Source: a virus. Taken from it: a stretch of DNA of 35,188 nt. Below, piece after piece: positions 2,334 to 21,748 of this stretch. The DNA is taken from IMG/VR virus record IMGVR_UViG_3300037504_000875, positions 1 through 35,188 of that record, one strand, 5' to 3'. The notes below the pieces were generated by a model that saw nothing but the letters and a program-made list of their open reading frames with translations, searched no databases and was not told where the DNA came from. The position numbers were made by a program, and so were the translations under genes. Positions within the stretch are counted from its first letter, which is position 1, and each line of letters starts with the position of its first letter.

Positions 2334-3638
2334 TTAGGACATATTCGGGTCAGCAGTAGAGCTGAGGACCACGAAGGCTTTCTCTTGCTCAGGTGTTCCG
2401 CCTACTCGTGCTGAAGCCCTGAACGCTGTCTGGTTGTCTTCAAAGAGGACGTGCCTTGACATCTCAACAGAGACAGTCTTCCTTTCCCCTATGAAATAAT
2501 GTTTCCAGTCGCCCAATACCACGTCGCCTGTGCTACCCAAAGCAGAGGTTTTATAGTCTGACATCACGACCGGAAGGCCCAACATATAACCAGCTACGCC
2601 TTCGCCAAAGTTATTATAGCCCTGACCAAGTTCCATAACCGGCCTGCCCTGATCATCCTTCTCTTTTCTCAGCGTATTGAAGACTTGTTTCTTCATAAAC
2701 CATACTGCGCCAGCATCAAACATCGGAGGAAGTTGAGACTGCATATTCAAACAATCCATATAGCTAACTGTTCCAGATGAGACCCTATTAACAGTAGTAA
2801 TTCCTGGAGCATTCAAGACACCCATTGGCCGCGTGGCGCCCATGCCACGTAGAAAGATTCTATCGGTATAATGCCAATAAGCGCCTTGGAATAGCTGCAC
2901 AAGAAGGTTACCAATATTTATGGCTGAGTCTTGCAGCAAAATATCAGTAACGGGCGTGAAGGCTGAGATCTCATGACATTCAAGTGTCAGCATTCCAAAC
3001 TCAGCCTTTGTGCTAGGTTTGGTGCGCCCCTCTTCAGTCCATCTCATCCTTACGCTTCCAAAGAAATCTTCGTTATCTTCGGTAAGATCTTGGTCCAGTT
3101 TAGGCCATTGGATCTTCTGTGTGGTCATGGGCCAAACTTGCGCCCTCGGCCAAACAATTGTTCCCGGAGGCGCAAACTGCAACATGGCATAACGAACATC
3201 TTCAGGTACAAATAGCCCCGCTGAGGCGTCATCCTGAGTGTTCATAACCGTGTCCCAATCAACGCTTTTGGCTACCGCGTGAGCTGTCTTTTTGTAGGTC
3301 TCAGCCATCTTGGTGAAAAATTCTTTAGACTCTTCGCCAAGCTCCTCAAACATTCCAGAGTTACGATAATAGCCCTTTCCGGTAACTGACCACTGGTTAG
3401 ATGTGTTTACTACAGAACCACCAGGAAGGCGGTACTGGTTAGGACCGACTTGAGAGAGTTTCCCATCGTCAACTACACCGGCTTCCTTTGTATGGATATG
3501 TGCTGGTATAGCTTTTTCAAACTCATCAAGTCTGGTATTTATCTTATCAAGAGGCTCCTGGAGCTTCTTCTCTATCGTCTCGCCCAGGAACTTCTGAAAC
3601 TCCTGCTTTTTGGCGTCGCTTAAGTTTGCCGTTGACAT
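2334..3638 (-). CDS. HK97-fold major capsid protein
   Basis: 434 residues, ATG with AAGGAGTG upstream. Residues 1-45 are a charged, coiled-coil-like segment (delta-domain type, acting as an internal scaffold). A linker to about 130 follows, then the HK97 core. Recognisable parts are GLFVPEDVRYAML at 141-153 at the start of the core, a FGSVRMRWTEEG E-loop region, TPVTDILLQDSAINIG, the RIFLRGMGATRPMGVLN segment typical of the A-domain approach, and a C-terminal strand with VVLGDWKHYFIGERK and FRASARVGG. It assembles the procapsid shell with the portal and is presumably trimmed by the nearby S78 protease, probably somewhere before residue 141. The QDDASAGLFVP segment is repeated almost exactly in the 911-aa protein upstream. 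Confidence 0.95.
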   Translation of the reverse strand: MSTANLSDAKKQEFQKFLGETIEKKLQEPLDKINTRLDEFEKAIPAHIHTKEAGVVDDGKLSQVGPNQYRLPGGSVVNTSNQWSVTGKGYYRNSGMFEELGEESKEFFTKMAETYKKTAHAVAKSVDWDTVMNTQDDASAGLFVPEDVRYAMLQFAPPGTIVWPRAQVWPMTTQKIQWPKLDQDLTEDNEDFFGSVRMRWTEEGRTKPSTKAEFGMLTLECHEISAFTPVTDILLQDSAINIGNLLVQLFQGAYWHYTDRIFLRGMGATRPMGVLNAPGITTVNRVSSGTVSYMDCLNMQSQLPPMFDAGAVWFMKKQVFNTLRKEKDDQGRPVMELGQGYNNFGEGVAGYMLGLPVVMSDYKTSALGSTGDVVLGDWKHYFIGERKTVSVEMSRHVLFEDNQTAFRASARVGGTPEQEKAFVVLSSTADPNMS

Positions 3639-3687
3639 AATTCACTCCTTGACTTGCTCAGTTGGAATGCGGGGATAACCCCCACAT

Positions 3688-5877
3688 TTAACTCTTAAAG
3701 CTGCTAATGCGATCTACAGTTGGCTGTAAGAAGGCATCAACTTTTGTAGTCAACATCTCGGCTATCTCTTCTTTAGAAATTCCGTAGATGTCGTAACTAC
3801 CATCATCTTTGTTAATGCTTTTTTCTTCTATCCAACTGAGCACATCATCATCCGCAAAGTAATCAAGGGCTTGTTCGATTGTAGACTCAACGACTTCCTT
3901 AGCCGCTTTAGTTTCTATGTTGGATTTACTAGCCTGCTTTTTTACCCACCTTGAAACATCTTCGTAGTCCCAAGTATTTTGGTCAAAAGAATAGCTAATC
4001 ATCTTCTGACAATCTATACAAAGTTCCCCTTCTACACCTGTGTATTCTTTCACCTTTATGTGGTGAACATTATGACCATCGTGGTCTTCCCTATCTACTA
4101 AAGCAAAATGCTTCTGTATATTCTCTTCCTCTGGGATCTCTTCTGATTCCTCTACTTCGGGTTCTGGTTCTTCTTCCTGAGCTATAGAATCTTTAAGTGG
4201 ACAATTCTCATTTTCACACGCAGATATTTCACCTGCTGTTACATCCTTGTCACACTCTATACAATAGAATGACTCCTCTTCGTCCTCATCCTCTTCAGGT
4301 TCTACATTCTCATCTTCCTCTACTGGCTCTTCTACCTCTGGAACCTCTTCTGGTCCCTCTGCTTCTGGTTCTACTTCATCGTCACCTAAGCCTTCGTCCT
4401 CCGCCTCCTCACTGTAACCTTCCTCTGGTTCCTCAGCTTCATCCTGTATTTCAGGTGTTTCTGTTTCCTCGCCCTCATTATCTTCCTCCTCTATAGCGGC
4501 CCTATACTCATCCAAAACTGCTGGCAACTCTGCCCTTATCACGTCCCGCACTATGTTACCTATCTCTACTTTCATTGTAGACATATCCATCTGCGGAGGT
4601 GGTGGTGGTTGAACTTCCGCATCCATTGGTTCTGGGCCTGGAGGGACTTCACCTTCCGATTGCGCAGCAGCTTGTTCTGCTTCCTCTGGAGGAACAAGTG
4701 AATCCAAACTGGTTTCACTCTCTGGCTCTGGGAACTTCCCGTCAACAGCAGGAGGGGCCTGGGGTTCAGTAATAGGCGGCTGCCCTTGCGCCTCAGTAGT
4801 AGCCTGTTGATTTTCCTCTGTAGGAGGCGGCTCTGCTGGAGGCTGTTCGGTCGCGGGCGCGGCCTGCTCTTCGGGAGTAGGCGAAGCGCCTGGGCTTGCC
4901 TGTCCTGGCGGAGGGGCTTGAACTTGCTGGCTGTCAGTAGGAGCAGTCGGCTGAGTGGCCGCCGCTGTCTCGGGACCTTGGGTCGGCTGCGTTTGGTCTG
5001 GAGCCTGCTCTGGAGGAGTGGGAGTGTTAGTCTGCCATATGTTATCTGGGTTTTCTCCCTTCGAGGCGTCTACCGGGATTCCATCGTCTGCCGTGGTCAT
5101 AGAACTAATTCTATTAATTCTAGAAGTCAGTTGTGCTTCTAAAAGCTTCTGTTCTACACCTGGATGGCTCCCTGACCTTGCTGCAACATTATGAACCCAT
5201 AACGTTTTCAACATCTTTTTAAGAGAGTCTTCTGTAACAGATATCTCAAAAGTAGCTGACTGATCTCCTGTCCTCTTCCTTTGCACTTGCCCTTCTAAAG
5301 CTTCTGTAGCGATAGCCACACCCTGAATAATAGACTGAATGGCCATGTTCATTTTACCGGCCATCTCCAGTTTTCTTTCAGAGTTTTGGTTCTCCTGCTG
5401 ATACTCATTAACAGCGTTAATGTATTCGTAGCCAGCTTTCTTAGCAGCTTCGGAACCTTGTTGATACCAAAGAGTAGCAGCGGGCCAATACATTACTGGA
5501 GCTGAATTGTTTTGATTATTAGGAGTTTGTACTACATTGCCTTGAGGAGCTTGGGGAGATGTTGGGGTGGTTGTTGTGTTAACTGGCATTCCAAAAGCAT
5601 CTTTTAGGATCATTCCTTTTGTCATTAGGAATTGAGTTATGCGTTTAGCTGCCTTTACACTCTGTAAACCTTCCTCCACAACACTCTTAAATTTAATTTC
5701 AAACCTGTCTGAGGAGACACCCTCTGAGATGAAACCTTTAGATACTAGTGAACTAAATACATCCCCAGGGTTAGGCGATTGACCATCACTCAAATAATTA
5801 CTTATTTCTTGAGTGAGGGACTTTATACGAGCACTATTCGGAGCTTGTTTGGCTTTCTGTCCCTTCTTTTTGGCCAT
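3688..5877 (-). CDS. 729-aa acidic Pro/Gln-rich zinc-ribbon protein (head region)
   Basis: The ATG at 5877 has GAGGAGG upstream and overlaps the end of the 911-aa gene by 44 nt. The layout is a basic N-terminus (AKKKGQKAKQ), a helical region to about residue 220, a very Pro/Gln/Ala-rich linker (about 270-420), then a long Glu/Asp-rich stretch (about 450-600). A zinc ribbon near residues 537-560 (CIECDK...CENENC) and a second CIDC pair near 618 follow. The C-terminus is helical. The zinc ribbon resembles the one at the end of the 911-aa protein (C-x2-C-x-K-x-V-x-A-x2-I-x2-C-x-N-x2-CP). Composition and position directly before the capsid gene fit an internal scaffold or head-core protein, but no known scaffold family is recognised. 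A role in packaging or ejection cannot be excluded. Confidence 0.7.
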   Translation of the reverse strand: MAKKKGQKAKQAPNSARIKSLTQEISNYLSDGQSPNPGDVFSSLVSKGFISEGVSSDRFEIKFKSVVEEGLQSVKAAKRITQFLMTKGMILKDAFGMPVNTTTTPTSPQAPQGNVVQTPNNQNNSAPVMYWPAATLWYQQGSEAAKKAGYEYINAVNEYQQENQNSERKLEMAGKMNMAIQSIIQGVAIATEALEGQVQRKRTGDQSATFEISVTEDSLKKMLKTLWVHNVAARSGSHPGVEQKLLEAQLTSRINRISSMTTADDGIPVDASKGENPDNIWQTNTPTPPEQAPDQTQPTQGPETAAATQPTAPTDSQQVQAPPPGQASPGASPTPEEQAAPATEQPPAEPPPTEENQQATTEAQGQPPITEPQAPPAVDGKFPEPESETSLDSLVPPEEAEQAAAQSEGEVPPGPEPMDAEVQPPPPPQMDMSTMKVEIGNIVRDVIRAELPAVLDEYRAAIEEEDNEGEETETPEIQDEAEEPEEGYSEEAEDEGLGDDEVEPEAEGPEEVPEVEEPVEEDENVEPEEDEDEEESFYCIECDKDVTAGEISACENENCPLKDSIAQEEEPEPEVEESEEIPEEENIQKHFALVDREDHDGHNVHHIKVKEYTGVEGELCIDCQKMISYSFDQNTWDYEDVSRWVKKQASKSNIETKAAKEVVESTIEQALDYFADDDVLSWIEEKSINKDDGSYDIYGISKEEIAEMLTTKVDAFLQPTVDRISSFKS

Positions 5878-8569
5878 CGCTCGTTTCCTCCTCTTTGTCC
5901 TTCTTCTCTTCTATATCTGTATCCCCTATAACTGCATCCAACCATGTAAAAGGACACTCGGGGTTATCACATCGCGCTATATCTTCAGCGCTTACTGGTT
6001 TATTACACAAATTACAAAATTTAGCATCTTCTACAGGAACAAATAAACCAGCGCTTCTGTCATCTTGGCTGCTCATATAGTCGGCGGCCCCTTTCATGTC
6101 AACCGGATTTATAGATTTTTCTGTAGTTTTTTCGGAGTTTGACTCTTCGGATGACATATTATTATATTTGTCTGGCTTAACACTTTTCTTGAGGTTTATA
6201 TAAATATCAGTAATTATATCATTAATAGCCTCATAATTAGTATGATTTGGGACACCACCTTCTATCATAATTTTACAAGATTGTGATATATCAGTGATCT
6301 CTTCAATTATTTGGATAGCCGCCATGTCAGCTATTTCATCAATAGAAACATACTCATCATCCGGCTCTATATTAGGAGCCTTAGTTATAATTTCTCCATT
6401 AAACTCCTTGCCAGATGTAACTCTTTTTATTGGTTCGTTATCCAACACCACCCTCTCAAAACTACCTTCACCGTGCAACTTATTAAAGTGATCCTGAATT
6501 TCCCTTACAAAGTCACCAGTAGCTTCGGGAGTTTTTGTTCTATTATAAACAACCATCATGTTACCAGGGGTGTTCTCTATGTCATAAAGATCATCTACTA
6601 CTTTGGTAAATCTTTCGGCTACTGTTCCTGGTTTAGTAGAATGTATTTTTTGAGAGCCCTCTATATGTCTCCTTATATCGTGCTCAACTAGTCTATTTAA
6701 AAAGTCTTTTCTATTAGTTTCTTTGCCCATCTGGGCAAGCTCTCGTCTTGTCTTGGCCTCTTCTCTTTTGGTTTCAGCGTTTATTTTCTTAATTTCATCG
6801 GCCATGGTTGACGTTTTCGGAGCTGGAGTCTTCCTATTCCCTATTTTATCAACCTCTTGTTGTTGCCTAGTTCTGCTTTTTTCTGCTGCCTGTTTCGCCC
6901 CAAGATAGCTTGCGATATCTTGTTGGAAATAATACATTCCACCAGTTCCGGCAGAAATAGATATTCCAGCCAAAACCCTCCTAGAAAGGGGGCCTATAAC
7001 TGCATCGGCCATAAATTCATTATATCCACGATAATCGTCTTTATTTACAATGTCAGCTCTATTAGCGAACTCGTCGCCATAGCGAGTTACAACCCGATCT
7101 GGCAATATAGATTCTGTATTTTTTATTTTTCGGGGTATTCCGCGAGAATCTAATAGCCTCTTCTGATCTAACCATAGCTTAAGATCGTCTTCACCAAGAG
7201 TTTTCCCCTTATTTCTAACAAAATTGACTTCAAGCGTTTTGGGGTCAACTTTTATAGGCTTAACGGAACCTTCAGGGCCGCCAGTCTTTAATATTCTATA
7301 TAGTTTGTTGTCCCCTGTTTTTGCTTCTCTCTTTAGAGCCTCTTCTACCATAGATTTATATCTAAGAGACCCGTTCTCATACGTGATTGGTTTACCTGAA
7401 TAGGCGTCCAGCTGACCAAACTTGGGAATAAAACTCTCTCTGGATGCGCTATCAGACAAATCTGCAACATAATTTTTGTTAAGCCTAAACCTATCAACAT
7501 TATAACCAGTCCATTTGGGGCCAGCCCTCATGCCATACTTGGCCCCTTCTTCTGGAGTCATACCTTTGGCCTTCATTAATGTTTTAGTTATCCACTTGTT
7601 AATTGCTCCAGCTTTCTCCATTTCCGTCCAGCTTTCTTTCCCTGTCACTTTAGCAAACTGTATAAACTCCGGTGGAACAGCTTCAGTTGGATCTGGAGCC
7701 CCAAATTCCTTTAATTTCCTAACCTGGAGTCTCCCAAAGCCATCAACATCCATGTGTTTCAGATCTTTAAGATTATCCATATTTTTGAGGCCACCCTGGA
7801 GCGCGAACTTTGGTCTACCAACAGTAAGAGCTGCAACACCCAAAATTGTAGCAATACCACCGGCAAGGAGAACGAGCTTCGCTCTATCCCTTTCATCTTT
7901 CTCAGAATATTCATTCCTAAAGGTGCCCCACGCATCTTTCAATATTTGTTGTTTAGCCACTTCTCTATCAAAAGCCGCTTTGGTTTCTGTTATACTAGCT
8001 CTGGCTTCTCCAGATTCACCTGGAACATTTTTTACAGAAACATAGCCCCCCCTAGAGAGTTTAGCTTTGCCGTATTTAGACCGATAGGCCGCTTCTCTCA
8101 TCTTCTCTTCTTTTTTGAGATATTCTTCGGGGTTATCTATATACTCAGCCCAATCTGGTTTACCCAGTTCCTTAGCATCTTCCTTGACCATCTTTTCTAT
8201 TTCTTTCTCAGAAGCGTCAGGATAAGCTTTTTTGTATTGGGACATTCTTTTAGGAACAGCAATAGAAGCATATTTTGAAGTTCTCCCAGAAAAACTTCTC
8301 TTACCACCATGCTTTCCTTTCGAGGTTTTTGGAGTAGAGCCTGCCTTCCCATCCTCTACAAATTTTCCATCTGGACCGCGGGGGTGTTCACTCTCCTCAA
8401 ATTCCTCTTTGGACATAGCCTTAGTTTTAAATAAAAAGGAGAGACCTTTTATCTCTTTAGCGCCTTTATTTTTTTTGCGGAACTTCCCATCTGAATCTCT
8501 GGGATGCTCATGCTCCTCAAATTCCTCTTTGGACATTTTTTTGGTCTCTATCAGCTCTGCCAATCCCAT
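5834..8569 (-). CDS. 911-aa head-operon protein with tandem HPR..DGKF repeats and a capsid-like zinc-ribbon tail
   Basis: Residues 9-30 and 49-70 are two copies of the same 22-residue unit, with core SKEEFEE.EHPR..DGKF. The HPR..DGKF signature is one I recall from phage head-morphogenesis (MuF-associated) proteins. A hydrophobic segment lies near residue 235 (LVLLAGGIATILGVAALTV) and a weaker one near 540 (RRVLAGISISAG). Residues 835-845 read QDDRSAGLFVP, almost identical to the major capsid protein, followed by a four-Cys zinc ribbon (FCNLC...CDNPEC) and an acidic tail. It lies between the protease and the 729-aa gene and starts next to the protease stop. It is probably virion or procapsid associated. 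The large middle part is unrecognised and could be an injected effector. Confidence 0.7.
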   Translation of the reverse strand: MGLAELIETKKMSKEEFEEHEHPRDSDGKFRKKNKGAKEIKGLSFLFKTKAMSKEEFEESEHPRGPDGKFVEDGKAGSTPKTSKGKHGGKRSFSGRTSKYASIAVPKRMSQYKKAYPDASEKEIEKMVKEDAKELGKPDWAEYIDNPEEYLKKEEKMREAAYRSKYGKAKLSRGGYVSVKNVPGESGEARASITETKAAFDREVAKQQILKDAWGTFRNEYSEKDERDRAKLVLLAGGIATILGVAALTVGRPKFALQGGLKNMDNLKDLKHMDVDGFGRLQVRKLKEFGAPDPTEAVPPEFIQFAKVTGKESWTEMEKAGAINKWITKTLMKAKGMTPEEGAKYGMRAGPKWTGYNVDRFRLNKNYVADLSDSASRESFIPKFGQLDAYSGKPITYENGSLRYKSMVEEALKREAKTGDNKLYRILKTGGPEGSVKPIKVDPKTLEVNFVRNKGKTLGEDDLKLWLDQKRLLDSRGIPRKIKNTESILPDRVVTRYGDEFANRADIVNKDDYRGYNEFMADAVIGPLSRRVLAGISISAGTGGMYYFQQDIASYLGAKQAAEKSRTRQQQEVDKIGNRKTPAPKTSTMADEIKKINAETKREEAKTRRELAQMGKETNRKDFLNRLVEHDIRRHIEGSQKIHSTKPGTVAERFTKVVDDLYDIENTPGNMMVVYNRTKTPEATGDFVREIQDHFNKLHGEGSFERVVLDNEPIKRVTSGKEFNGEIITKAPNIEPDDEYVSIDEIADMAAIQIIEEITDISQSCKIMIEGGVPNHTNYEAINDIITDIYINLKKSVKPDKYNNMSSEESNSEKTTEKSINPVDMKGAADYMSSQDDRSAGLFVPVEDAKFCNLCNKPVSAEDIARCDNPECPFTWLDAVIGDTDIEEKKDKEEETSDGQKEGTESQTSSE

Positions 8570-8570
8570 A

Positions 8571-9329
8571 TTATTTCCCTATAAGCGCAGATAAGCCTTT
8601 TGTTTCTTTGGTTTCTATGGAAGTATCCAAAAGCCACTTTAATACAGGCCTATTTAAATCAGCCCAATAATCAGCCATCTCGTCAAAAATATCTGGATCG
8701 TCGCTCCAATAGTTAGGATCATAGCCCTTAATTATAAGCTGGGCCATCTCATTACCCTTTTCCGCAAAAGAAAGAAGCGCCCGCCGATTAGAAGGAATAG
8801 CCAGCAAAGAAACTTCAACAAGCTCAACTCTACGATATATCTTCTTACACCTACGCCCATTTGATGTCTTCATCGACATAGAAGGTATTCTGTCTGGCGC
8901 CGGGTTATCTTCCCACTCAAGGGGGATAAAGCCTGTAGAGAAACCTCTTAGGCACCCTTCAGAGAGAAGCGTTAAAACTTCTTCCCCCTGTGGAGTTTTA
9001 GAAACATAAAACTCTCCCCACAAGCCCTCTGGAGGCTTGGGTTCAACATTAAGACACTTACCCACCGGGAGCGACTTATGATGATGGTGAAGGATCAAGA
9101 TAGGATTTGTCATATAGACATCAAGGTCCCTTTGAAACGCTTCCACTGGAACGACTTCGCCATCTCTATCCATATCTGGCGTGGAGATGAGGCCCTTTAT
9201 AGTGCGCTTTTCAACATCAACATCCAAAACTGGATATTGAACTTTTTCAGCCCTCTCGGGTTCATCTTCTATAACATCAAGAGCCTTAAACACAAGATCA
9301 TCTGATATATCATAGGCTAGATTATCCAT
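8571..9329 (-). CDS. HK97-type prohead maturation protease (peptidase S78)
   Basis: 252 residues. The fold markers are in order: KRTIKGLISTPDMDRDGEVV at 41-60 (typical opening strand of S78/U35 proteases), ILHHHHKSLPVGK at 79-91 with the catalytic His, and CLRGFSTGFIPLEWE at 126-140 with the nucleophile Ser131. RRVELVEVSLLAIPSNRRAL then supplies the last conserved strand. The enzyme cleaves the scaffold part of the capsid protein, and itself, inside the procapsid. Its C-terminus carries SIETKETKGL, similar to ETK/EEK motifs scattered through neighbouring proteins, which may be a processing signal. It lies between the 501-aa and 911-aa genes with overlapping or adjacent stops and starts. Confidence 0.93.
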   Translation of the reverse strand: MDNLAYDISDDLVFKALDVIEDEPERAEKVQYPVLDVDVEKRTIKGLISTPDMDRDGEVVPVEAFQRDLDVYMTNPILILHHHHKSLPVGKCLNVEPKPPEGLWGEFYVSKTPQGEEVLTLLSEGCLRGFSTGFIPLEWEDNPAPDRIPSMSMKTSNGRRCKKIYRRVELVEVSLLAIPSNRRALLSFAEKGNEMAQLIIKGYDPNYWSDDPDIFDEMADYWADLNRPVLKWLLDTSIETKETKGLSALIGK

Positions 9330-9331
9330 AG

Positions 9332-10837
9332 CTACTTCCTCAGCTTATCATAAGCATATTTACCGCTAACAAGACCCGCTGCACCCGCCAAACCAACTGC
9401 ACCGCGCTTGCCCCACTTTGCCAACCTAGATGGCTTCAGGGCAGAAGATTTCGGGGAAGCATACCGAGAAGCGTCTAACAGTTTTCTTTCTCTAATCTTA
9501 GCGCTTCTTTCTATGGTTTCATCGTCTAGGGCTTCCACTAAGGGTTGGCTAGTATTCTTCCACTTAGGTGGATTAGAGCGCCTTTGAGCACGCCTAATAT
9601 CCTTACTGGCCCTCCCCGAACCCTCAATATCTCCAGATTCAGTAATCTTTATCTCGTTCTGGTCGGGTTTAAAGCGCCTAGCATAAGTTTCCCTAGCTGT
9701 TTCCTTAACTTCAATACTAAACAAACCCTTGCCAACAAAAGCTTCATAGGGAGAATTTTTAGTGTGAACACCACCAAACCCCCTATCAACAAATTTATAA
9801 TCAGTTACATCAATGTCAGTCTTCGGATCAGCAGATATCCTCCGATTAAAAGCTCTTTCCATAGCTTTTTCATCTCCACGCCTCGCTGCATTCAGGCCTT
9901 CTGCTGTATCCTGAAACGTATCCATCGTGTCTTCCTTAACTTTTTTAAAACTATCAGCGCTTTCTTTTTTTAGTTTATTAAGATGTCGAGCGCCATCGTC
10001 CATATATTTAGCAGCCCCGCCTATACCTGCACCAGTAAGACCACCCATCGCTCCCAAAATCAAAGCCGCCCTGCGCTTTTGATCTTTGCTTCCAGGTAGC
10101 ACATACCCAGTTCCGGCGCCCGCTCCAGCGCCAATGGCTGCCCCGCCGAGAGTGTGGGCGGCCACGCCCCTCAAAGATTTCTCTACTATCATAGAATCAT
10201 CAAGCTCTTTAGCCACGGGCGTCTTTTTACGATTCGACAAGGCTCCACCGGCTCCGGCTCCTACAAGGCCTGCACCACCAATAGTAGTGCCAACCACATT
10301 CTTCTCACCTACCCGTTCCACGGCTTTTCTAGCCTTTTTGCTTCTTCTAAATGCAGCCCCGAGACCGCGGAACCCAGCCGTCCCCGCTGCGCCACCAACG
10401 CCTGCACCGATTAAGGCTCCTCTCTTGGCTCCTTCCATTCTCTCACCTTTTTTAGCCCTAGCAGCACCAATAGCCGCACCACCAGCTCCACCTATACCAG
10501 CAGCAGGCATTCCCGCTCTGGCTGCGTCAAACATCAAATCAGATGCAGCTGCGCCTACTCTTTCCTTCCAGTTTTTCTCTTCCATACTTTCTAAGAAAGA
10601 GGGGCCTTTGGATATGAGCATATCGTCATCTAGTTCAAAAGATTTATTCTCTATAATAGGATCTTCATAAAGAGACTCAGCATATTCAGAGTAATCCTGT
10701 CTAGGTGTGAGGTCTTCAAAGCCAACAGTTAGGTCTTCCTCTACTCCCTTGCGCACTAGATCATTTTTCTCCACTTCTTTTGTAGATCCATCAAAAGTTC
10801 CCATTGTTTTAAATGAACATTTTCCGCGTCCAGACAT
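9332..10837 (-). CDS. 501-aa glycine-zipper repeat protein, member of the three-gene modular family
   Basis: The N-terminus SGRGKCSFKTMGTF matches the starts of the 858-aa and 646-aa proteins (RGkAsFkT). It contains LDDDMLISKGPSFLESMEEK near residue 68 and KELDDSMIVEKS near 210, which are copies of the family module. Between and after these are long Gly/Ala-rich glycine-zipper stretches with a basic turn, for example GAKRGALIGAGVGGAAG near 140 and a similar block near 230-275. The middle (about 280-480) is charged and the tail ends GAVGLAGAAGLVSGKYAYDKL. These zippers could insert into membranes or pack as helices. Encoded between portal and protease, it is probably an internal virion or ejection protein, but no known family is recognised. 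Confidence 0.7.
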   Translation of the reverse strand: MSGRGKCSFKTMGTFDGSTKEVEKNDLVRKGVEEDLTVGFEDLTPRQDYSEYAESLYEDPIIENKSFELDDDMLISKGPSFLESMEEKNWKERVGAAASDLMFDAARAGMPAAGIGGAGGAAIGAARAKKGERMEGAKRGALIGAGVGGAAGTAGFRGLGAAFRRSKKARKAVERVGEKNVVGTTIGGAGLVGAGAGGALSNRKKTPVAKELDDSMIVEKSLRGVAAHTLGGAAIGAGAGAGTGYVLPGSKDQKRRAALILGAMGGLTGAGIGGAAKYMDDGARHLNKLKKESADSFKKVKEDTMDTFQDTAEGLNAARRGDEKAMERAFNRRISADPKTDIDVTDYKFVDRGFGGVHTKNSPYEAFVGKGLFSIEVKETARETYARRFKPDQNEIKITESGDIEGSGRASKDIRRAQRRSNPPKWKNTSQPLVEALDDETIERSAKIRERKLLDASRYASPKSSALKPSRLAKWGKRGAVGLAGAAGLVSGKYAYDKLRK

Positions 10838-10847
10838 TTTAACACTC

Positions 10848-13340
10848 CTAGAATTCTGGTTTTACTCCACATCTACAATTTGGGTGGAGAGTAGCTGTCT
10901 TATAATAAACCTGATCATTCGCAAAATCTTTTATAACCCTGCCATGTGCCCTATCGCAGTTTTTAGCAGGGTTAGGATCTTCACATACACGATCATCCAG
11001 AGAAGTCCAGTGGAGAATTCTTTTTACCACCGGTTTCCCTGCCTGTTTATTTATAGTTTCAAATGAGGTCATGGCGCCTTCATTCATTGCGCCAGCTATT
11101 TCAGTTCTTGCTATCATTGTGGCCCTGGTAGAACCTATATGGGAAAACCTCTTCTTAATAATTTCCACCACCTCTTCCAAGTCCATTCCTGTTGAAATAG
11201 CCTTCTTAATAATTTTAGTAAGTTCAGTTTGTATAGATTTAGCCCTGAGATCCGATGATAAGTCAAGAAATTTTCCTGCCGCCTGTTCCGCCGCACGCTG
11301 GGGATCTGAGATGGTTTGAGCATCATCTCCTGTTCCTTTTTGAACCATATAAACACCAACGCCGACCCCAACTTCAGCGGCTTTGTTTATATATGGTTCC
11401 GCCTGATCTTCATATAATCCCTTTAACCAATCAACTGTAAGGTCTTCAGCAGGATCTTTGGTCACATAGTCAGAGAATCCTTTTTCGACAATATCAACAG
11501 CAGCATCTCCTACATCTACTAAAAACCCTTTTGCTATATCCGTATAATCTGTTTCTATCTTGTTCCAAAGATCATAAGATTCTTCGTAGGCTTTAAACAC
11601 TATTTTATCTATTGGATCATCAAAATAATTATCAGCTATATAATCGTGCAAACCCCTAGTTATTAGTTTAGTAAGAGATTGGTCGTATTTTCCTGAATCC
11701 AACATAGATTGGAGAGACCCAGAAGGATCTGCTGCAATAAGCTTGGCGAGCCCTTGTTGATTCCCTCTGGCTGCATTAAGAAGGGAGCTAAGGCCAGGTT
11801 TAGAAGACCTTGCCGCTTCTGCTACCAACTGTTGCAATGCTGGTAACGGTGGCCTTCCACCCATCTGCCCCATTGCACCTTGGGCTGCTGGCATCTGCTG
11901 AGGGGCCACGCCCCCACCTTGCTGTGCCATGGCATTGGGATCTTGAGGCATGGCGCCCTGCTGCCCGGCCCCCATTCCCATTGACCCCATAATCTTTTCG
12001 CTCCATAACTCATCAGCCTCTTTGTCCTGACCTGGAACCGGCTCTCCATTCATCCAAGCAATGTCAGCAAGTGGAGTATCCCAAGGTTTCAAGCCCTTCC
12101 TCTTCCTTATCTCGTTAGGAGACACCACAGCCATATTGACTTCGGCTTGATCCTTAGCAAGTTCCCACTCATCATCTTTGGGCAGAGCAGACTCATGTTT
12201 AAATTCCAAACCATCATTCTCACCAAAATCAGGGAGAAGCTGGAGATTGATCGTGTCTTCAATAAGCCTTAATCTGGGATCTATGCAGTTTTTAACGAAT
12301 GTGGTTTCCGCTGTCACTGAAGATGATTTATTAAAAGACTCATAAAGACCAAGCATGGCTTCAGGGACATTGTAAGCGGCCAAAATATTATCTTTGATCC
12401 ACTCCGACAGCCCCAAAAACTCAAAGTCTCTAGCAGACATTCCAAGCTGTTCTATCCTTACATTTTTAGACAGAATGGCTGGCTTGTGTTGTTTACCTGG
12501 GCCTCTATGCTTCGCTGACCAACTAGCATGAATAGCATTAGCCTCCTGCTCTTGAATAGGATCTTCTGCAACTATAACAAAATCCGGTCTAGCGTTATTT
12601 TGGAAAAAGTCTTTCTCATATACCTGCATGAGCATATCTAAGTCAGTAACGTGACAACACGCCTGCATGGGCGTAAAGGGCATCATCACATTTGTAGGAT
12701 GTGGGTAGTTAAAATAAACCACATCATCCCAAGAATATTCCTGTCGTGTCTGTTGGTGCTGTGTAGAGGAAAATACAAATTTCTTTATAAGTTCATCAGT
12801 ATTATTGCCCTTTTCTATAGTAACCAACTCGTGAGGATTCAGGGGGTAAAGCTCCTTCACTTTACCTACAGCGTTCCTTATTTTAAGCCACACAGCAAAG
12901 CCACAAAGATCTAAGTGCATATGAGTTATAGCCCTTAATCTTCTGCCTGTCATATATTTATTCGGCCGCTTTAAAAGCTTAATGGCAGGATGTTGTAATA
13001 TTCTGTCAAACTCTTCGTCGTTAGGCTGGCCAACCTCTCTATACAAATAATAGGGAACAGTAGAAGCTTTACCCGCAATAAGATTCACACACGGGAAAAC
13101 CCACGATCTATATTTATTGATTGCCTGTTGCGCTGTTACTGTGGGATTTAATGTTCCGGGGTTCCCGTTAGATACATAGGTAAGAGTATTAGACTTTAAC
13201 TGTTCCCACCCACCTTTCTGGACTATACCATTACCGTTCCGAGGCGCGGGTAAAAAGTTATTAGCGCTGTGTCTAATAACTCCACTGATCCCCTTTGAGA
13301 TACTGCGAACAGATCCTAGAAAAGTGGGTTCCTTCTGCAT
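10848..13340 (-). CDS. Portal protein fused to a MuF-like minor head domain
   Basis: 830 residues. Residues 1 to about 440 are a phage portal of the HK97/PF04860 type: YRSWVFPCVNLIAGKAS near 73-89, YLYREVGQPN, LLKRPNKYMTGRRLR, VVYFNYPHPTN, ILAAYNVPEAMLG and the closing EIRKRKGLKPWD. A Gln/Met/Gly/Pro linker (about 450-500) follows, then helices. The end (about 715-830) is a Mu F-like domain with GSTRATMIARTEIAGAMNEGA and a terminal TLHPNCRCGVKPEF. The portal forms the dodecameric DNA gate at one capsid vertex; MuF domains lie inside the head and may act during assembly or ejection. Such fusions occur in some phages, although the two genes are usually separate. Confidence 0.92.
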   Translation of the reverse strand: MQKEPTFLGSVRSISKGISGVIRHSANNFLPAPRNGNGIVQKGGWEQLKSNTLTYVSNGNPGTLNPTVTAQQAINKYRSWVFPCVNLIAGKASTVPYYLYREVGQPNDEEFDRILQHPAIKLLKRPNKYMTGRRLRAITHMHLDLCGFAVWLKIRNAVGKVKELYPLNPHELVTIEKGNNTDELIKKFVFSSTQHQQTRQEYSWDDVVYFNYPHPTNVMMPFTPMQACCHVTDLDMLMQVYEKDFFQNNARPDFVIVAEDPIQEQEANAIHASWSAKHRGPGKQHKPAILSKNVRIEQLGMSARDFEFLGLSEWIKDNILAAYNVPEAMLGLYESFNKSSSVTAETTFVKNCIDPRLRLIEDTINLQLLPDFGENDGLEFKHESALPKDDEWELAKDQAEVNMAVVSPNEIRKRKGLKPWDTPLADIAWMNGEPVPGQDKEADELWSEKIMGSMGMGAGQQGAMPQDPNAMAQQGGGVAPQQMPAAQGAMGQMGGRPPLPALQQLVAEAARSSKPGLSSLLNAARGNQQGLAKLIAADPSGSLQSMLDSGKYDQSLTKLITRGLHDYIADNYFDDPIDKIVFKAYEESYDLWNKIETDYTDIAKGFLVDVGDAAVDIVEKGFSDYVTKDPAEDLTVDWLKGLYEDQAEPYINKAAEVGVGVGVYMVQKGTGDDAQTISDPQRAAEQAAGKFLDLSSDLRAKSIQTELTKIIKKAISTGMDLEEVVEIIKKRFSHIGSTRATMIARTEIAGAMNEGAMTSFETINKQAGKPVVKRILHWTSLDDRVCEDPNPAKNCDRAHGRVIKDFANDQVYYKTATLHPNCRCGVKPEF

Positions 13341-13343
13341 AGC

Positions 13344-13880
13344 CTATTCGCTCCATTTTCTCTTGGCCACGTCCTCAAGACTAGAAATCTCTTGTTCCTG
13401 ATTAGCAGAAATGGTTTTGAGAAGCTCTTCTTTTCTTTGTTCTTTTGTGACAATTTCATTCAGAAAATCATCTTGCCTCTGAGAACTCTTGTTTACCTTA
13501 GTTAAGAAGCTTTCAAACTTATTGCGGAAGGCGCTCCCAACAACAAGGGATTTGTTACTTGGGGCAACCACCTCAACCTCAGCAGAATAGCTCTCTGGCC
13601 GTTGCGGTTCTGAATTGGCTTCTTTAGGTTCTTCCTTCGCTTCCTGTTTCGTTTTAACAATCTCTTCGGCCATTAATTGTCCCTCCTCGTTAAATGTCTG
13701 AACGACTATGTGATCTATATCTTCTTTATTTAGAAGATGGCCCCCTATTCGGTCTGATATCGTCATTCCGTAGGGGGGTTTCTTAAGGAGCCTCTTCTTA
13801 AGATCATCCGCTGATTCTAACTGATCAGTTTTGATCTTTAGAGGCTCCTTTTTCAGTCTATATACAGTAAGGTGAAGCAA
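13344..13880 (-). CDS. Unrecognised 178-aa protein upstream of the portal
   Basis: The TTG at 13880 is the likely start, with ACAGGA upstream that overlaps the previous stop; no in-frame ATG fits the N-terminus. Residues 1-75 look like a small globular domain (HLTVYRLKKEPLKIK, then IGGHLLNKEDIDHIVVQTF). The remainder is charged and helical with a Lys/Glu-rich linker and ends SSLEDVAKRKWSE. There is no membrane segment. It is 3 nt before the portal gene and after the repeat proteins, so it probably belongs to head or connector assembly. No family is recognised. Confidence 0.65.
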   Translation of the reverse strand: MLHLTVYRLKKEPLKIKTDQLESADDLKKRLLKKPPYGMTISDRIGGHLLNKEDIDHIVVQTFNEEGQLMAEEIVKTKQEAKEEPKEANSEPQRPESYSAEVEVVAPSNKSLVVGSAFRNKFESFLTKVNKSSQRQDDFLNEIVTKEQRKEELLKTISANQEQEISSLEDVAKRKWSE

Positions 13881-13883
13881 TAT

Positions 13884-14312
13884 TCATCCTGTTATATCCT
13901 CTAGCCCCGGCAGTCTGTAAGGAGATCTAACCCTCTTCGTTACTTGCTTGCCTTTCCTCGGCTGTTTGCCTGCATTGGCTATGACCCTCTTGGCATATTT
14001 AGGAACACCGGTCATGTTTCTTGCAGAGCTAAGATTGGCCTTGGTCTCTATTAGACCAGAGAAATTTTTCTCTTCTATCTGGAAACCCTTTTGGACTATG
14101 CCTTCGTTGTAGGCTTCATAGCCTTTCTTTTTAGGTTTTGGAGTTGTAACACCAGCTACAGTTCCCCCAATTGGGCCTCCGCCAATAAGGCCGCCTATAA
14201 CTCCCCTTTTAGCGCCTCTCTTTTTGGCGCCTTCTGGGGCAGTAAGATAACCCATAGCAGCTCCAGTTCCGGCGCCAAGACCAGCTAACGTTCCAAGTTC
14301 TATCAGAGTCAT
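13884..14312 (-). CDS. 142-aa repeat-family ORF, probably the C-terminal part of the 646-aa protein through an A9 frameshift
   Basis: The first ATG is at 14312, but the same frame is open up to 14396 and encodes more of the family module (LVVKEVSDDINVGDFQIEKK) before that ATG, with no ATG, GTG or TTG there. The frame begins exactly in the A9 run where the upstream protein ends, so a -1 slip joins the two. The visible protein has a glycine-zipper pair with a basic turn (GAKKRGAKRGVIGGLIGGG) near residue 30 and one full YEAYNEGIVQKGFQIEEK module near 65. A basic tail ending YRLPGLEDITG follows. Independent translation from 14312 is possible, but its ribosome site is weak. Confidence 0.7.
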   Translation of the reverse strand: MTLIELGTLAGLGAGTGAAMGYLTAPEGAKKRGAKRGVIGGLIGGGPIGGTVAGVTTPKPKKKGYEAYNEGIVQKGFQIEEKNFSGLIETKANLSSARNMTGVPKYAKRVIANAGKQPRKGKQVTKRVRSPYRLPGLEDITG

Positions 14313-15515
14313 CTTCTTTTCTATCTGGAAGTCTCCAACATTAATATCGTCAGAGACTTCCTTAACTACCAGTCGACCCTCATCTACCGTTTTTTTTTAT
14401 CAGTAAGCTTGTCGTAGCCATACTTACCCGCTGCGCCGCCTGCTACCAGAGCAGCGCCTATTCCACCACGCTTGCCCCACCTCTTAGCGCCTCGCTTAAA
14501 AGCATCTGATCCAAGATAGGCTCTGGTCCTAGACCCTCTATCCTTAACGCCCTCTTTAAAGCCACCTAGTTTTTCCTTGGCTTTATCCCAGCGTTCTCCC
14601 TTCTCTTCTATCTGGAAACCCTTTTGGACTATGCCTTCGTTGTAGGCTTCATAGCCTTTTCCGAAGTATTTATCATAACCAAGTTTGCCACCTGCACCCG
14701 CTCCAGCGCCAGAAGCTAGAAGCAACGCCGCCGCAGTTTTAGGGTTTTCCTTAGCAAGATCTTCCAAGGCTTTGGCTTTTTGGCCAGACCAATCTTTGGC
14801 TCTGCCAGCCCCTCTTTTCATGGCTCCACCGGCTCCAGAAACTTTGCCCCAAGTAAAACGAGCAGCGTCACCAATTTTGCCCTTCTCTTCTATCTGGAAA
14901 CCCTTTTGGACTATGCCTTCGTTGTAGGCTTCATATCCTTTCTTTTTGCGCTTGCTATAAGCATACCCTCCGCCACCTATTGCGCCTGCGCCTAACAGGC
15001 CAGCAGCTATAAGCTTGTTCCTAGTGGTCCCAAACCTGCGAAGCCTTCCTAGTTGATCCTTAGCACCCCTCGCAACCCTCTTAGCCTTGCCCTCTTTGGG
15101 ATCATAAGCAGAGGTTGGGCCCTCGGTAATAAAATCTGGAGCCCCTTCAACCCTCTTCATCTTCTCTTCTATCTGGAAGCCTTTTGTGGCTATGCCAGAA
15201 TTAAACTCATCAAAACCCTTTCTGCTTTTGGCATATCCATATCCTGCGCCACCTGCAAGTCCTGCGCCGCCTGCGATCCCGGCAGCGGTTAGGGGGTTTT
15301 CGTCAATCTTGTCCCTGAGTTTCCCAGCGCCTTCTGTCACTTTATTCTTGGCTTTTCTGGCTTCGATCCCAAGAGCACGTTTGGCTGAACCAAACTTGCC
15401 CATATTCATGCCCTCTTTGCCAAGCCTGTAATTGGCCCTAAGCGCTCTTGCAAACTTCTCTTCTATCTGAAACCCCTTGGCAGCAAAGCCACTGTTGTAA
15501 GCATTCCAGCCCTTA
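14060..15515. repeat. Five DNA copies of the FQIEEK module
   Basis: Near-identical segments of about 55-60 bp occur at roughly 14067-14126, 14600-14659 and 14883-14940. Diverged copies follow at about 15163-15222 and 15450-15512. All encode the G-Y-E-A-Y-N..KGFQIEEK module on the minus strand. The three best copies differ by only one or two bases, which indicates recent duplication or gene conversion. Confidence 0.85.
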
Positions 15516-16324
15516 CCCAAAGCATCGGTAGTCTCATCGGATGACATCTCATCTTCTATAGGATCTTCGTCTTCCGCTTCGGCTTCTTCGGGGTTCTTAT
15601 CACCACTAACCGCATCCGCCTTAGCCTCCGCTTCTCCTGTCTGAGGAGAGGGCTCGTTCATCCCTTGAGTCTCTTTATCATCATCAGATTCCTCTACATA
15701 GTCACCAGAATCTTCATCTTCCGTGTAACCATCTTCAAGCCCCATATCTTCTGTATCACCCTTATAGACCAAAGATGAGAGCCCCTTACCTACGGTAAGA
15801 TCATCAACCCCACCAATAGAAAGGTCATTATCAAAACTCTTCATTGTATAGGGAGACGCTTCACGAGCCATAAGATCAAAGTCTTCCATTGCAGACTTTT
15901 GTACCATGCCAATGGTATCGTGAACATTGTGAACATTCATGCCAGAAGACACCTGAACAACATGACCCTTGGCTACCATGTTATTAAAGTCTTCGTATCC
16001 CAGGCCCTTCTTCACTCTGTCTCCGGGTCCGGGAAGGTGCTGAACGTCTGATACATAACTATCGGCTATGTCGGTTTCTGCGCCCGCTTCTACCTCTTTA
16101 AGCTCTTCGCTCATAGTAGTAGTCGGATCACCGGGCTTGTTATCAGACTTCTTAATATTCGCCGCTTTGGGAGCGCCAGCTTGAGCATCATCAAGCTCGG
16201 CGGTCTCAGTAACATCCATGCCGGTATCGAGAGGAAGAGTTTCCTCTTCGTGTCCGTCACCTTTAGCAACAAAATCTCCCATGAAACCCTTCATGGTTGT
16301 AAAACTTGCGCTTCCTCTGTTCAT
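14384..16324 (-). CDS. 646-aa modular repeat protein with four FQIEEK modules
   Basis: The ATG at 16324 has AAGGAG 6 nt upstream and overlaps the upstream stop region. The N-terminus NRGSASFTTMKGFM matches the two paralogues. The first 280 residues are acidic. Then come four copies of a module with the pattern G[WFY].[AE][YF]N.G[FI]..KGFQIEEK, each followed by a basic linker and a glycine-zipper hydrophobic stretch such as AAGIAGGAGLAGGAGYGYA. The last residues DKKKR sit on an A9 run just before the stop; a -1 slip would add about 168 residues containing one more full module and reach about 813 in total, close to the 858-aa paralogue. It lies upstream of the portal and is probably an internal or ejected virion protein; no family is recognised. 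Confidence 0.72.
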   Translation of the reverse strand: MNRGSASFTTMKGFMGDFVAKGDGHEEETLPLDTGMDVTETAELDDAQAGAPKAANIKKSDNKPGDPTTTMSEELKEVEAGAETDIADSYVSDVQHLPGPGDRVKKGLGYEDFNNMVAKGHVVQVSSGMNVHNVHDTIGMVQKSAMEDFDLMAREASPYTMKSFDNDLSIGGVDDLTVGKGLSSLVYKGDTEDMGLEDGYTEDEDSGDYVEESDDDKETQGMNEPSPQTGEAEAKADAVSGDKNPEEAEAEDEDPIEDEMSSDETTDALGKGWNAYNSGFAAKGFQIEEKFARALRANYRLGKEGMNMGKFGSAKRALGIEARKAKNKVTEGAGKLRDKIDENPLTAAGIAGGAGLAGGAGYGYAKSRKGFDEFNSGIATKGFQIEEKMKRVEGAPDFITEGPTSAYDPKEGKAKRVARGAKDQLGRLRRFGTTRNKLIAAGLLGAGAIGGGGYAYSKRKKKGYEAYNEGIVQKGFQIEEKGKIGDAARFTWGKVSGAGGAMKRGAGRAKDWSGQKAKALEDLAKENPKTAAALLLASGAGAGAGGKLGYDKYFGKGYEAYNEGIVQKGFQIEEKGERWDKAKEKLGGFKEGVKDRGSRTRAYLGSDAFKRGAKRWGKRGGIGAALVAGGAAGKYGYDKLTDKKKR

Positions 16325-16326
16325 CA

Positions 16327-18903
16327 CTATCTCCTTTTAAAGGACTTTGTTATAAAGTTCTTATCTAATCCTCTTGTATAATATTGCGGTCTCGGCGCTT
16401 GAGAAGCTGACGACCCAGTTCCAGCATATATTAACCCTCCGCCACCTATTGCGCCTGCGCCTATTAACCGCTTTGTCCACTTAGACATTGGTTGCCTTGC
16501 GCCAGCAACCTGAGCTTTTTCAGCTTTATCTAACTCATCTAATATAGATTGCGCCTCTCTTGTTTGACCTTTTGCTTGGCTTATTTGATTCTGGGCCGCC
16601 ATCCTTTTCTCTTGATTTATTATTGCCTGGCTCTTGTTAGCATCCGCCACCGGTTGATTGGGAATGCCGGCTCCAGCGGGATTCTCCTTTGTTGCTGTTG
16701 CACCAGGCCTCTTTCCAGTGGGTTTGGGAATACTAGGGCCTCCTCTCATTTTTCCCTTTGGAAGAGAGGTTACAATGGTCCTTGCTTTACCAGTGGCTTG
16801 TTTTGCTCCACTGAGAATACTTCTATACTTTGTTTCAACGGTATCTAAAAAAGACCCACCCTTAAAGGTCACCATGTCATCAGCAAAGCCCTTAGTCTCA
16901 AGAAGGGCCTGCGCCTCATCAAACTTACCTTCCGCTACCAGAGCATCAATGAAAGCCACTTTTTCTTCTGGTGTCATTCTGGCAGCATCCTCAGCCGCAT
17001 CGACATTCCTTATAGATTGCACAAGGAGATTGAAACCTGCGCCCTTCTCTTCCACATCCTCTAAGAAAGATGGGCCTTTGGATATGAACATGTCATCGTC
17101 GAGGCCCTTAAACCCAGTTTTAGACATATCAAATCTGGTCAAAATCCAATCTGCATCATCATCATAAATGTCTCTTAAATCTCTATAGTAATCAGCAGCA
17201 GGATCGTCTGTATATTTAGCCTGATTAATAGCGGTTCTGGCCTTACTTGCCCTTCCAACCTCCCCTCTTCTTGCTGCCTCTATCCCCATATCATCTGCTG
17301 CCTGTTTATACAGATCCAGCCTGCTCTTTAAATTCGGGTCCGGGGCTCCAGGAACGGGGGTTTCTATCTTATGCCTCCTAACAGATCCCTTCCCTGCATT
17401 CTTGATTTTATCCTTATATTTTAAATATTTCCCCATCCTAGAAAAATAGTTTTTCTCTACTATCATAGATTCATCAACTGATTTAGGAATGAGCTGTTTT
17501 TCAGATTCTTCCCTGACCAGCCTCTTAGGAGAAGTAGATGATTTGACACCAGCGCCCGTTGCGGCAATTACCGGAACCATATTTTCTACTGTATCTGCAA
17601 TAGTTCTTTTTGCTAGCCCACCCTGCATTGCCATCTCATATAACTCTGGCCTAGCTGCCCCAATAGCCCCACTTGTAGCTGCGCCCACCGTAGCTCCAGC
17701 AATCGCTCCTCTTACAAAAGAAGCAGCCCTATCTGTATCCGAAGCGGCTGCGGCTGCGGTCCCACCTACCAAACCGCCTGTTATAGCGCCTCTAGCCAAG
17801 CCAGATATGGCGCCAGTAAACCTGCTCTCTATACCTTTTCCTACAACAAATCTAGCTGTCCCCCTGGTCTGTGTGCCAGAAGGGGGGGATGGTTTTGTGA
17901 CCGTAGGAGTGGTCGGTTTGTTTGGTGTTGGCCTTTTTATTGATGGTGGTTTAGGTGGTGTCGGCTTTGCAATATTATTCACTTTATTCTGAGTACGTCT
18001 TTGCTGAGTAGTAATTTTGCGATTTATGTTCATACCTTTATCTTCAACTTGGTCTAAGAAGGGCTCACCCTTAAAGATTACCATATCATCATCTACTGAT
18101 TTTCTAGATGCAGCAACTTCCCTGGAAACTAGTCCGCTGCCCAATAAAGCCGAACCTGCTGCCAGACCACCAGCAGCATATTTAGCTTTACTTAAAGGAA
18201 CGCCAGCCTTGACAAGCTTATCTGCTATCCTAGACCCTAAGTCGAATCCCACAGCGCCAGCCAAGGCGCCTGTGGCTGCTCCTGCGCCAATAATAGATCT
18301 TTTATCTTCCGATCCCGGATGATCCTCACTCGCAAGGGACCCAACACTACCGCCAAGCAGACCCCCTGCCGCAGCAACCTTAGCCAAAGCATCTACAGAG
18401 GCTCCGCCTTTCTCAACCACCATTGATTCATCTAGTTCTTTAACAGACAAATCACCAGCTCTTGGTCTGAGTTCCTTTGGCCTTTTTTGTTGCTCTGGCT
18501 CTTCATATCCAACGATACTATCTTTTACTTTTTCTAATCTGCCAGCTCTAAATTTCCCTCTTATGGCTACACCGGCGAGTGACTCTAAGGGACTCTTTTG
18601 TTCTAGTGTATCTAAAAAAGACTCTCCCTTATTTACAATCAAATCATCATCTAACTCTTTAACAGTTAAATCTTCATAATAATTACGATCTACCACATAA
18701 TCCTCTTCTAGTTCTTTAACCGCAATACCTACTTCAGTTCGATCCGCCAGAACATCCAGAAGGGTCTCATAAGAGCCAGAAGGGTTCATCTCTCTAATAT
18801 CAGGAATATATCTGTTGGAAGCGTCCACAACCGGACTCACATTTGTATCCGGTTCCGTAGAGATAGGTTTTTGCGTTTTGAACTCTGCTTTTCCTCGCGG
18901 CAT
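16327..18903 (-). CDS. 858-aa modular repeat protein with seven or eight DDDM..KG.SFLD..E.K modules
   Basis: ATG with AGGAG upstream (in a hairpin). The N-terminus PRGKAEFKTQ matches the paralogues. Modules lie near residues 62, 81, 153, 267, 474, 598, 666 and 844. The clearest are VKELDDDLIVNKGESFLDTL, KSVDDDMVIFKGEPFLDQVE, KGLDDDMFISKGPSFLEDVE and KGFADDMVTFKGGSFLDTVE. The last, RGLDKNFITKSFKRR, is degenerate at the C-terminus. Between them are glycine-zipper stretches (near 180-265 and 365-460), a Pro/Thr-rich basic linker near 305-350, and charged helical segments. It is the first gene of the head operon. The architecture suggests a bead-on-string precursor or ejection protein, possibly cut at the repeated modules by the prohead protease; this is inference. 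Confidence 0.72.
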   Translation of the reverse strand: MPRGKAEFKTQKPISTEPDTNVSPVVDASNRYIPDIREMNPSGSYETLLDVLADRTEVGIAVKELEEDYVVDRNYYEDLTVKELDDDLIVNKGESFLDTLEQKSPLESLAGVAIRGKFRAGRLEKVKDSIVGYEEPEQQKRPKELRPRAGDLSVKELDESMVVEKGGASVDALAKVAAAGGLLGGSVGSLASEDHPGSEDKRSIIGAGAATGALAGAVGFDLGSRIADKLVKAGVPLSKAKYAAGGLAAGSALLGSGLVSREVAASRKSVDDDMVIFKGEPFLDQVEDKGMNINRKITTQQRRTQNKVNNIAKPTPPKPPSIKRPTPNKPTTPTVTKPSPPSGTQTRGTARFVVGKGIESRFTGAISGLARGAITGGLVGGTAAAAASDTDRAASFVRGAIAGATVGAATSGAIGAARPELYEMAMQGGLAKRTIADTVENMVPVIAATGAGVKSSTSPKRLVREESEKQLIPKSVDESMIVEKNYFSRMGKYLKYKDKIKNAGKGSVRRHKIETPVPGAPDPNLKSRLDLYKQAADDMGIEAARRGEVGRASKARTAINQAKYTDDPAADYYRDLRDIYDDDADWILTRFDMSKTGFKGLDDDMFISKGPSFLEDVEEKGAGFNLLVQSIRNVDAAEDAARMTPEEKVAFIDALVAEGKFDEAQALLETKGFADDMVTFKGGSFLDTVETKYRSILSGAKQATGKARTIVTSLPKGKMRGGPSIPKPTGKRPGATATKENPAGAGIPNQPVADANKSQAIINQEKRMAAQNQISQAKGQTREAQSILDELDKAEKAQVAGARQPMSKWTKRLIGAGAIGGGGLIYAGTGSSASQAPRPQYYTRGLDKNFITKSFKRR

Positions 18904-19306: not shown

Positions 19307-20053
19307 CTACCTCTCTTTTTTTTTGGCATGTCTCCCCCTAGCCTTACACCCACAAGATTTTCTCGACCCCGTTTTTAGCTCCGACTCCTTAACGGTTGTT
19401 ATGTTACCACATACGCATTCGCATTTCCACTCTAAAGGCGCTATAGTATTTGCTATACCTAAAACCTTTATCCATTTATGCACTTCCCCAATCCTATTTT
19501 TAACTCTATATTTTCCCCAATAACAATTGCCAGGAAAGAAATCCGCCGACTCGTCCAATCTAAGTATTCTGTGACCTGGGGGGCATGGCCCCATATCTCT
19601 CAAAAAATTATCACCAGACTCCCTCCACTCTTTACAAACATCTATTCCATTCTTCCACCAAGCCTGACCATAAAGCCCAAACTTGTGCTCCTTCCCTGGA
19701 GTGCAATTATATATTATCATTAATCTATATTTATTAGTACGCTGTCGCTCCCGAGGGTTGTTATATTTTCTTTTAGATTGTTTCTCAAATATCGGATCAA
19801 TAAACCCCTTCTCGGCCAACCGTCGTTGTAGTCCCCCCGCATATACCACCCTTTTTGCGCCACCGCGCGTAAGCCCTATCCAAAACGTTTTCACAGGGCG
19901 GGAACCATAGGTGCGTTTCTGCCGCTTCTCTTTAAGATATCTATCCACCTCTTCAGGTGACATCCGCTTAACCAAAGTAACTTTGCCAGTCCAGACTCCT
20001 GTCCAGTCCTTGGCAAGTGGATGCAAACAGCTCTCGTAAGCAAGCTCAAGCAT
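19307..20053 (-). CDS. Homing-endonuclease-like (HNH/AP2-type) protein with a C-terminal zinc knuckle
   Basis: 248 residues. The central part matches the small phage endonuclease/AP2-associated domain: YRLMIIYNCTPGKEHKFGLYG at about 108-128, then GIDVCKEWRESGDNFLRDMG, GHRILRLDESADFFPGNCYWG. This reproduces the common pattern of Tyr-Gly..GI.VC..W...F..DMG followed by LDR.D..G.Y.P.NCRW. The end carries WKCECVCGNITTVKESELK followed by SCGC, a zinc knuckle common in such proteins. It lies 4 nt after the terminase fragment, where selfish endonucleases often sit. It probably cuts or binds DNA to spread itself; the first 80 residues are unrecognised. Confidence 0.75.
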   Translation of the reverse strand: MLELAYESCLHPLAKDWTGVWTGKVTLVKRMSPEEVDRYLKEKRQKRTYGSRPVKTFWIGLTRGGAKRVVYAGGLQRRLAEKGFIDPIFEKQSKRKYNNPRERQRTNKYRLMIIYNCTPGKEHKFGLYGQAWWKNGIDVCKEWRESGDNFLRDMGPCPPGHRILRLDESADFFPGNCYWGKYRVKNRIGEVHKWIKVLGIANTIAPLEWKCECVCGNITTVKESELKTGSRKSCGCKARGRHAKKKER

Positions 20054-21673: not shown

Positions 21674-21748
21674 TGGCTCCGAGACTAGGATTCGAACCTA
21701 GATTGCCTGAGTCAAAGTCAGATGTCCTGCCCATTAGACGATCTCGGA
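21674..21748 (-). tRNA. tRNA-Gln (anticodon TTG)
   Basis: All arms fold: acceptor TCCGAGA/TCTCGGA, D stem GTCT/GGAC, anticodon stem-loop with loop CTTTGAC (TTG at positions 34-36), and T arm CTAGG-TTCGAAT-CCTAG. The discriminator is G and the CCA end is encoded. It reads CAA and CAG codons. Its first 31 nt overlap the end of the dCTP deaminase-like gene, so processing of the tRNA would cut that mRNA. Confidence 0.95.

Follow-up and report, generated by a model that had tools for sequence, protein, structure and literature searches.

Runs of more than seven adenines (An, n > 7) are listed among transcriptional slippage sites (PMC3711429). In the Citrobacter rodentium gene tssM1, an A11 run lies just before the stop codon and undergoes slippage at a frequency of 20–25% (PMC4256274). 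As at the locus described here, the run stands shortly ahead of a stop and one extra A opens a C-terminal extension; both protein forms are needed in that system. The differences are that tssM1 is a cellular T6SS gene with an A11 run and measured slippage, whereas we deal with a phage virion gene, runs of A9 and A10 and predicted slippage. Slippage at A9 is also described for Thermus thermophilus dnaX and for IS elements (PMC1088944); these share the run length of our locus and the use of conserved ORF organisation as evidence, but dnaX slippage truncates its product, the IS elements fuse parts of a transposase and neither is a virion gene. Within phage structural genes, −1 and +1 frameshifts are documented for lambda G/GT, the major capsid protein of T3/T7 and Listeria PSA/A118 (PMC5009743). 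They resemble our locus in that a virion or assembly protein is also made in a minor version with a longer C-terminus, and differ in being described as ribosomal and in affecting tail-chaperone, capsid or tail genes, whereas our locus is a gene of Gly-rich repeats close to the portal, with no conserved stimulator.

The sequence analysed (the window) spans an entire IMG/VR record, 35188 bases in length, and comes from an uncultured, long-tailed phage. Its structural genes lie on the minus strand and comprise a likely terminase piece, repeat proteins of 858 and 646 aa, a 178-aa protein, the portal, a 501-aa repeat protein, a likely prohead protease, proteins of 911 and 729 aa and a likely major capsid protein. 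The protease (252 aa) and the 911-aa protein are separate ORFs joined by TAA-T-ATG at 8569-8571, and their counterpart is a single ORF in the related contigs L003 (1194 aa or more) and L005 (2171 aa); we considered this split as another slippage break and rejected it, as the junction holds no homopolymer, only TAA-T-ATG. A tRNA-Gln gene (anticodon TTG) lies at 21674-21748. The features on which the present analysis turns are as follows.

16327 to 18903, minus strand: 858-aa protein of KG modules and Gly-rich segments, adjoining the 646-aa ORF and similar to it in style.
14387 to 16324, minus strand: frame-0 ORF of 646 aa, from ATG at 16324 (647 aa from GTG at 16327), closed by TAG at 14386-14384.
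14390 to 14398, minus strand: A9 run, candidate slippage site, in the codons GAT AAA AAA AAA CGG TAG.
13884 to 14390, minus strand: extension in the −1 frame, comprising 168 codons beyond the slip, reading TVDEGRLVVKEVSDDINVGDFQIEKKMTLIELG...ITG and closed by TGA at 13886-13884.
14326 to 14361, minus strand: strong hairpin predicted within the extension, beginning 28 nt past the A-run (dG −19.8 kcal/mol, z about −4).
14309 to 14334, minus strand: in-frame copy of the FQIEEKM coding repeat, 24 of 26 nt identical to 15157-15182, including the ATG at 14312.
14068 to 14132, minus strand: 65-nt repeat within the extension, matching 14883-14947 of the 646-aa ORF in frame at 98% identity.
13344 to 13880, minus strand: next gene, 178 aa, starting with TTG at 13880, 3 nt past the TGA of the extension.
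10848 to 13340, minus strand: portal protein with a MuF-like C-terminal domain, the anchor for finding relatives.

The 646-aa ORF encodes an acidic N-terminal part, after which Gly-rich (zipper-like) segments alternate with KG modules (KGYEAYNEGIVQKGFQIEEK), and its protein ends in ...GYDKLTDKKKR*. A preliminary description had placed the stop just past the A9 run and proposed that a −1 shift joins the next frame into a fusion of about 813 aa. Both points are borne out: CGG and then TAG follow the run on the minus strand, and re-reading one A within A9 gives a fusion of 645 + 168 = 813 aa. The −1 frame is shut by TGA TAA directly ahead of the run and from there is open through to its TGA at 13886-13884; its translation after the run begins KK TVDEGRLVVKEVSDDINVGDFQIEKK MTLIELG..., and the extension consists in order of a module, a Gly-rich segment, a second KG module and a basic tail. 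Interpreting the junction as slippage yielding a fusion is now supported by the layout at an A10 run in the relative L008, the in-frame continuation in L005, the 24-of-26-nt repeat over the ATG, the absent Shine-Dalgarno sequence and a 503-nt hole in the operon. The added argument that the fused length comes near that of the 858-aa paralogue proved of little use, the detectable homologues of the 646-aa protein being 320, 398 and 531 aa long.

An A9 run is unremarkable by itself; what exceeds chance is where it lies, and that the run of L008 lies at the same point. About 0.35 runs of at least nine A and 1.3 of at least nine T are expected in the whole window, and the coding strand of the 16.6-kb structural block (2334-18903) contains a single A run of this length, at the junction. 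The 15.2-kb L008 locus likewise has one coding-strand A run of at least nine, at the corresponding junction. KKK sites are written entirely in AAA in two of seven cases in window genes and one of four in L008, and AAA encodes 58% of lysines in the window and 52% in L008. Because this usage makes an all-AAA KKK ordinary, we put weight on position and conservation rather than on the run. Elsewhere in the window, a second A9 (19316-19324), which closes a 248-aa HNH-like gene at its 3′ end, was rejected as another case, since a shift there reaches only a short frame.

From the sequence organisation, we consider that the A9 run is probably a site of programmed slippage, transcriptional or ribosomal, yielding a short and a C-terminally extended repeat protein. 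Most transcripts or ribosomes would hold frame 0 and end at the TAG, giving the 646-aa protein. A minority would give the 813-aa protein, preferably through gain of one A in the mRNA (A9 to A10, RNA polymerase slippage) or alternatively through a −1 slip of the ribosome on A_AAA_AAA. The 168 extra residues would contribute a further KG module and one more Gly-rich segment, which may be membrane-active.

Relatives were found via the portal and comprise L008, L005 and L003/L004, the last a pair of contigs that share their ORFs. The L008 contig, 31.9 kb long and assigned by binning to a Brevinema MAG (host uncertain), has a portal 53% identical to that of the window; its homologue of the 646-aa protein is 531 aa long and 45% identical. 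The 531-aa ORF ends CTT AAA AAA AAA AGA GCT AGC TGA, an A10 run (L008:1976-1985) with the stop within four codons. At this junction (CTT A10 GAGCTAGCTGA) the −1 frame reads KKKELADAITAKGVGRAILNTLGSSLSGGLVGGV... and continues as KKKELADAITAKGVGRAILNTLGSSLSGGLVGGVTGAIPGAISGAISG into a 100-N scaffold gap, so that it could be traced for 45 codons past the run; the next gene runs from 2238. Its segment KELADAITAKG matches the KELDDSLVVKG module of the 531-aa protein itself (3 of 1000 shuffles as good). By sequence comparison, then, two independently assembled, well-diverged phages share an A run, a stop no more than four codons later, and continuation of the −1 frame into a module and Gly-rich sequence. 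The L008 arrangement conforms to the criterion of Baranov et al., and the layout was seen in the window and L008 only. The preliminary description had called for homologous phages to be compared for a conserved A run and fusion, and the comparison returned the same layout with A10 in L008 and no A-run in L003 or L005. In the L005 homologue the last Gly-rich segment passes into a module (YRATRKEKGADEEDFVFK; KEKGADEEDFVFK) in frame with no shift, in support of the view that the full protein is the fused one. The shorter L003 homologue is without this part. L003 also has, at 1-2697, a ribonucleotide-reductase-like ORF with an apparent intein insertion (CLRKGSRILTKKGWQKIEEL...LVNGILVHNC), judged by eye only.

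These comparisons bear on two explanations that would dispense with programmed slippage. The assembly may have miscounted the run, the true A10 giving one continuous 813-aa ORF; homopolymers are a common site of assembly errors, L005 continues in frame at the equivalent point and the extension is plainly coding, but the independent L008 assembly (coverage 16 in its title) would need the same type of error at the same place, A10 for A11, and two A8 runs within window ORFs (8469-8476 and 1091-1098) leave their reading frames intact. We regard a miscount as unlikely: because a distant relative shows the same layout with ten A's, the junction looks more like programmed slippage than a sequencing mistake. 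Improbable too is real length variation in the DNA, whether phase variation or a recent indel, with slippage at most an incidental rescue (a ‘pseudo-pseudogene’, PMC1088944). Such variation would suit the hypermutability of A9-A10 runs, the continuous form present in L005 and the unequal run lengths of the window (A9) and L008 (A10), yet both A-run genomes share the disrupted arrangement, both extensions retain module and Gly-rich coding, and a pattern scan of viral contigs, a set from which near-identical records may be absent, turned up no near-identical contig in which run lengths could be compared. Further relatives were sought in viral contigs with the 646-aa protein, portals and alignments as queries, which returned only L003/L004, L005 and a 34% fragment, L016. 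Genome contigs yielded L008, and a search of 392 genomes of its phylum gave no other relative; phage and plasmid sequences gave only distant portals.

The extension itself is, on its sequence, plainly coding and derived from repeats of the 646-aa protein. The preliminary description had noted that the −1 frame already encodes family-type sequence upstream of its first ATG, and an in-frame FQIEEKM coding-repeat copy is indeed found there: 22 nt of the 26-nt copy sit upstream of ATG 14312, the sole early ATG in the extension, outside the translation of any separate gene. The 26-residue stretch ahead of this ATG matches family modules of the window's proteins only modestly in each single comparison, with 13 to 251 of 1000 shuffles scoring equally well. 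Over the 81 nt leading up to the ATG, codon usage looks mildly coding in the −1 frame and in no other, again a modest signal (+0.11 per codon vs −0.49 and −0.74 in the other frames). The anti-Shine-Dalgarno energy at ATG 14312 is +0.2 kcal/mol, so a Shine-Dalgarno sequence is absent there by this measure, compared with −3.1 to −12.0 at 14 other assumed starts; the calculation took the start of the 646-aa ORF 6 nt downstream of its true place, with the strong AAAAGGAG still visible. Together with the repeat copy, this suggests that ATG 14312 is an internal Met of the FQIEEKM repeat. The sequence itself shows how the ORFs are laid out, that L008 conserves this layout, and that the extension is coding and of repeat origin.

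Translation of the 142-aa ORF from ATG 14312 as a separate gene would fit its coding-like codon usage, and L008 has an ATG at 1920, preceded by AGGAG, in a stretch of −1 frame that is open ahead of A10 as well, so that internal initiation overlapping frame 0 is conceivable there. We nevertheless consider a separate gene very unlikely. In the window, ATG 14312 has no Shine-Dalgarno sequence and, with its preceding 22 nt, copies an internal coding repeat; the −1 frame is open and coding-like from the A-run down to this ATG; and TGA TAA ahead of the run bars any −1 start overlapping frame 0. The L008 extension has no ATG, GTG or TTG within the first 27 codons after its run. Gene spacing favours the fusion reading as well: genes of this packed operon are spaced −44 to 49 nt, and the C-terminal extension fills what would otherwise be a 503-nt hole, leaving 3 nt before the 178-aa gene. 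A homologue of that gene adjoins the portal in L005 and L008 has a gene at the corresponding place. The setting also speaks against a tail assembly chaperone of the G/GT type: the 646-aa gene sits between the 858-aa gene and the portal, not just upstream of a tape-measure gene, and a 1561-aa ORF, possibly the tape measure, lies elsewhere in the L008 contig.

Whether slippage occurs, at what level and by which mechanism we infer from these features. Both the window and L008 carry an in-frame X_XXY_YYZ heptamer, A_AAA_AAA, as ribosomal slippage would use. A classical −1 cassette has a stimulator (a hairpin or pseudoknot about 5-9 nt 3′, a Shine-Dalgarno-like sequence about 10-14 nt 5′), and no conserved one accompanies the heptamer: a search for conserved downstream structure found no L008 counterpart of the window hairpin, which at 28 nt is too distant for classical −1 ribosomal frameshifting, and a Shine-Dalgarno-like GGAGG 13 nt upstream of the run is present in L008 only. 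Because no conserved stimulator is seen, following the reasoning applied to tssM1 (PMC4256274), and given the A9 length criterion (PMC1088944), our analysis leans towards transcriptional over ribosomal slippage.

The KG modules that separate the Gly-rich segments of the 646-aa protein end in Phi-x-x-K-G. This motif occurs nine times in the 646-aa protein, nine in the 858-aa protein and ten in the 531-aa protein of L008, against 1.0-2.0 expected, and is also found close to portal N-termini and, in three major capsid proteins, at a KG that follows the N-terminal region. Its recurrence spans 10848-18903 and 2334-3638 of the window, L005 and L008. The HK97 protease cuts its capsid protein after a lysine. 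More weakly, we infer that Phi-x-x-K/G may mark candidate prohead-protease sites, cut between K and G, and that the gene may encode a head polyprotein from which several Gly-rich peptides are freed. The KG modules would be cut by the prohead protease that the phage itself encodes, and slippage would set the ratio of the last Gly-rich peptides. In the giant phage SPN3US, head-protein propeptides undergo multiple cleavages (PMC10052503); as is proposed here, a prohead protease cuts several head/ejection proteins and propeptides repeatedly at a short motif, but the cut follows Glu (e.g. AQE-124), whereas the Phi-x-x-K/G site is proposed from sequence. It is a tentative possibility that RNA-polymerase slippage at the poly-A run sets two polyprotein lengths from which the prohead protease cuts Gly-rich, membrane-active head peptides, the dose of the last ones being tuned in this way. 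The slippage claim is independent of prohead-protease cleavage.

Slippage of this kind has precedents in other systems; for this gene family it would be new. The well-known phage frameshifts are ribosomal and occur in tail-chaperone, capsid or tail genes, and a conserved A9/A10 slip site in a virion gene made up of repeats, if true, would add a gene class to those subject to recoding. The slip site would also account for the hole in which annotation would otherwise call a small, spurious gene, and the junction is compact enough to serve as a test of whether transcription may slip in the late operon of a phage.
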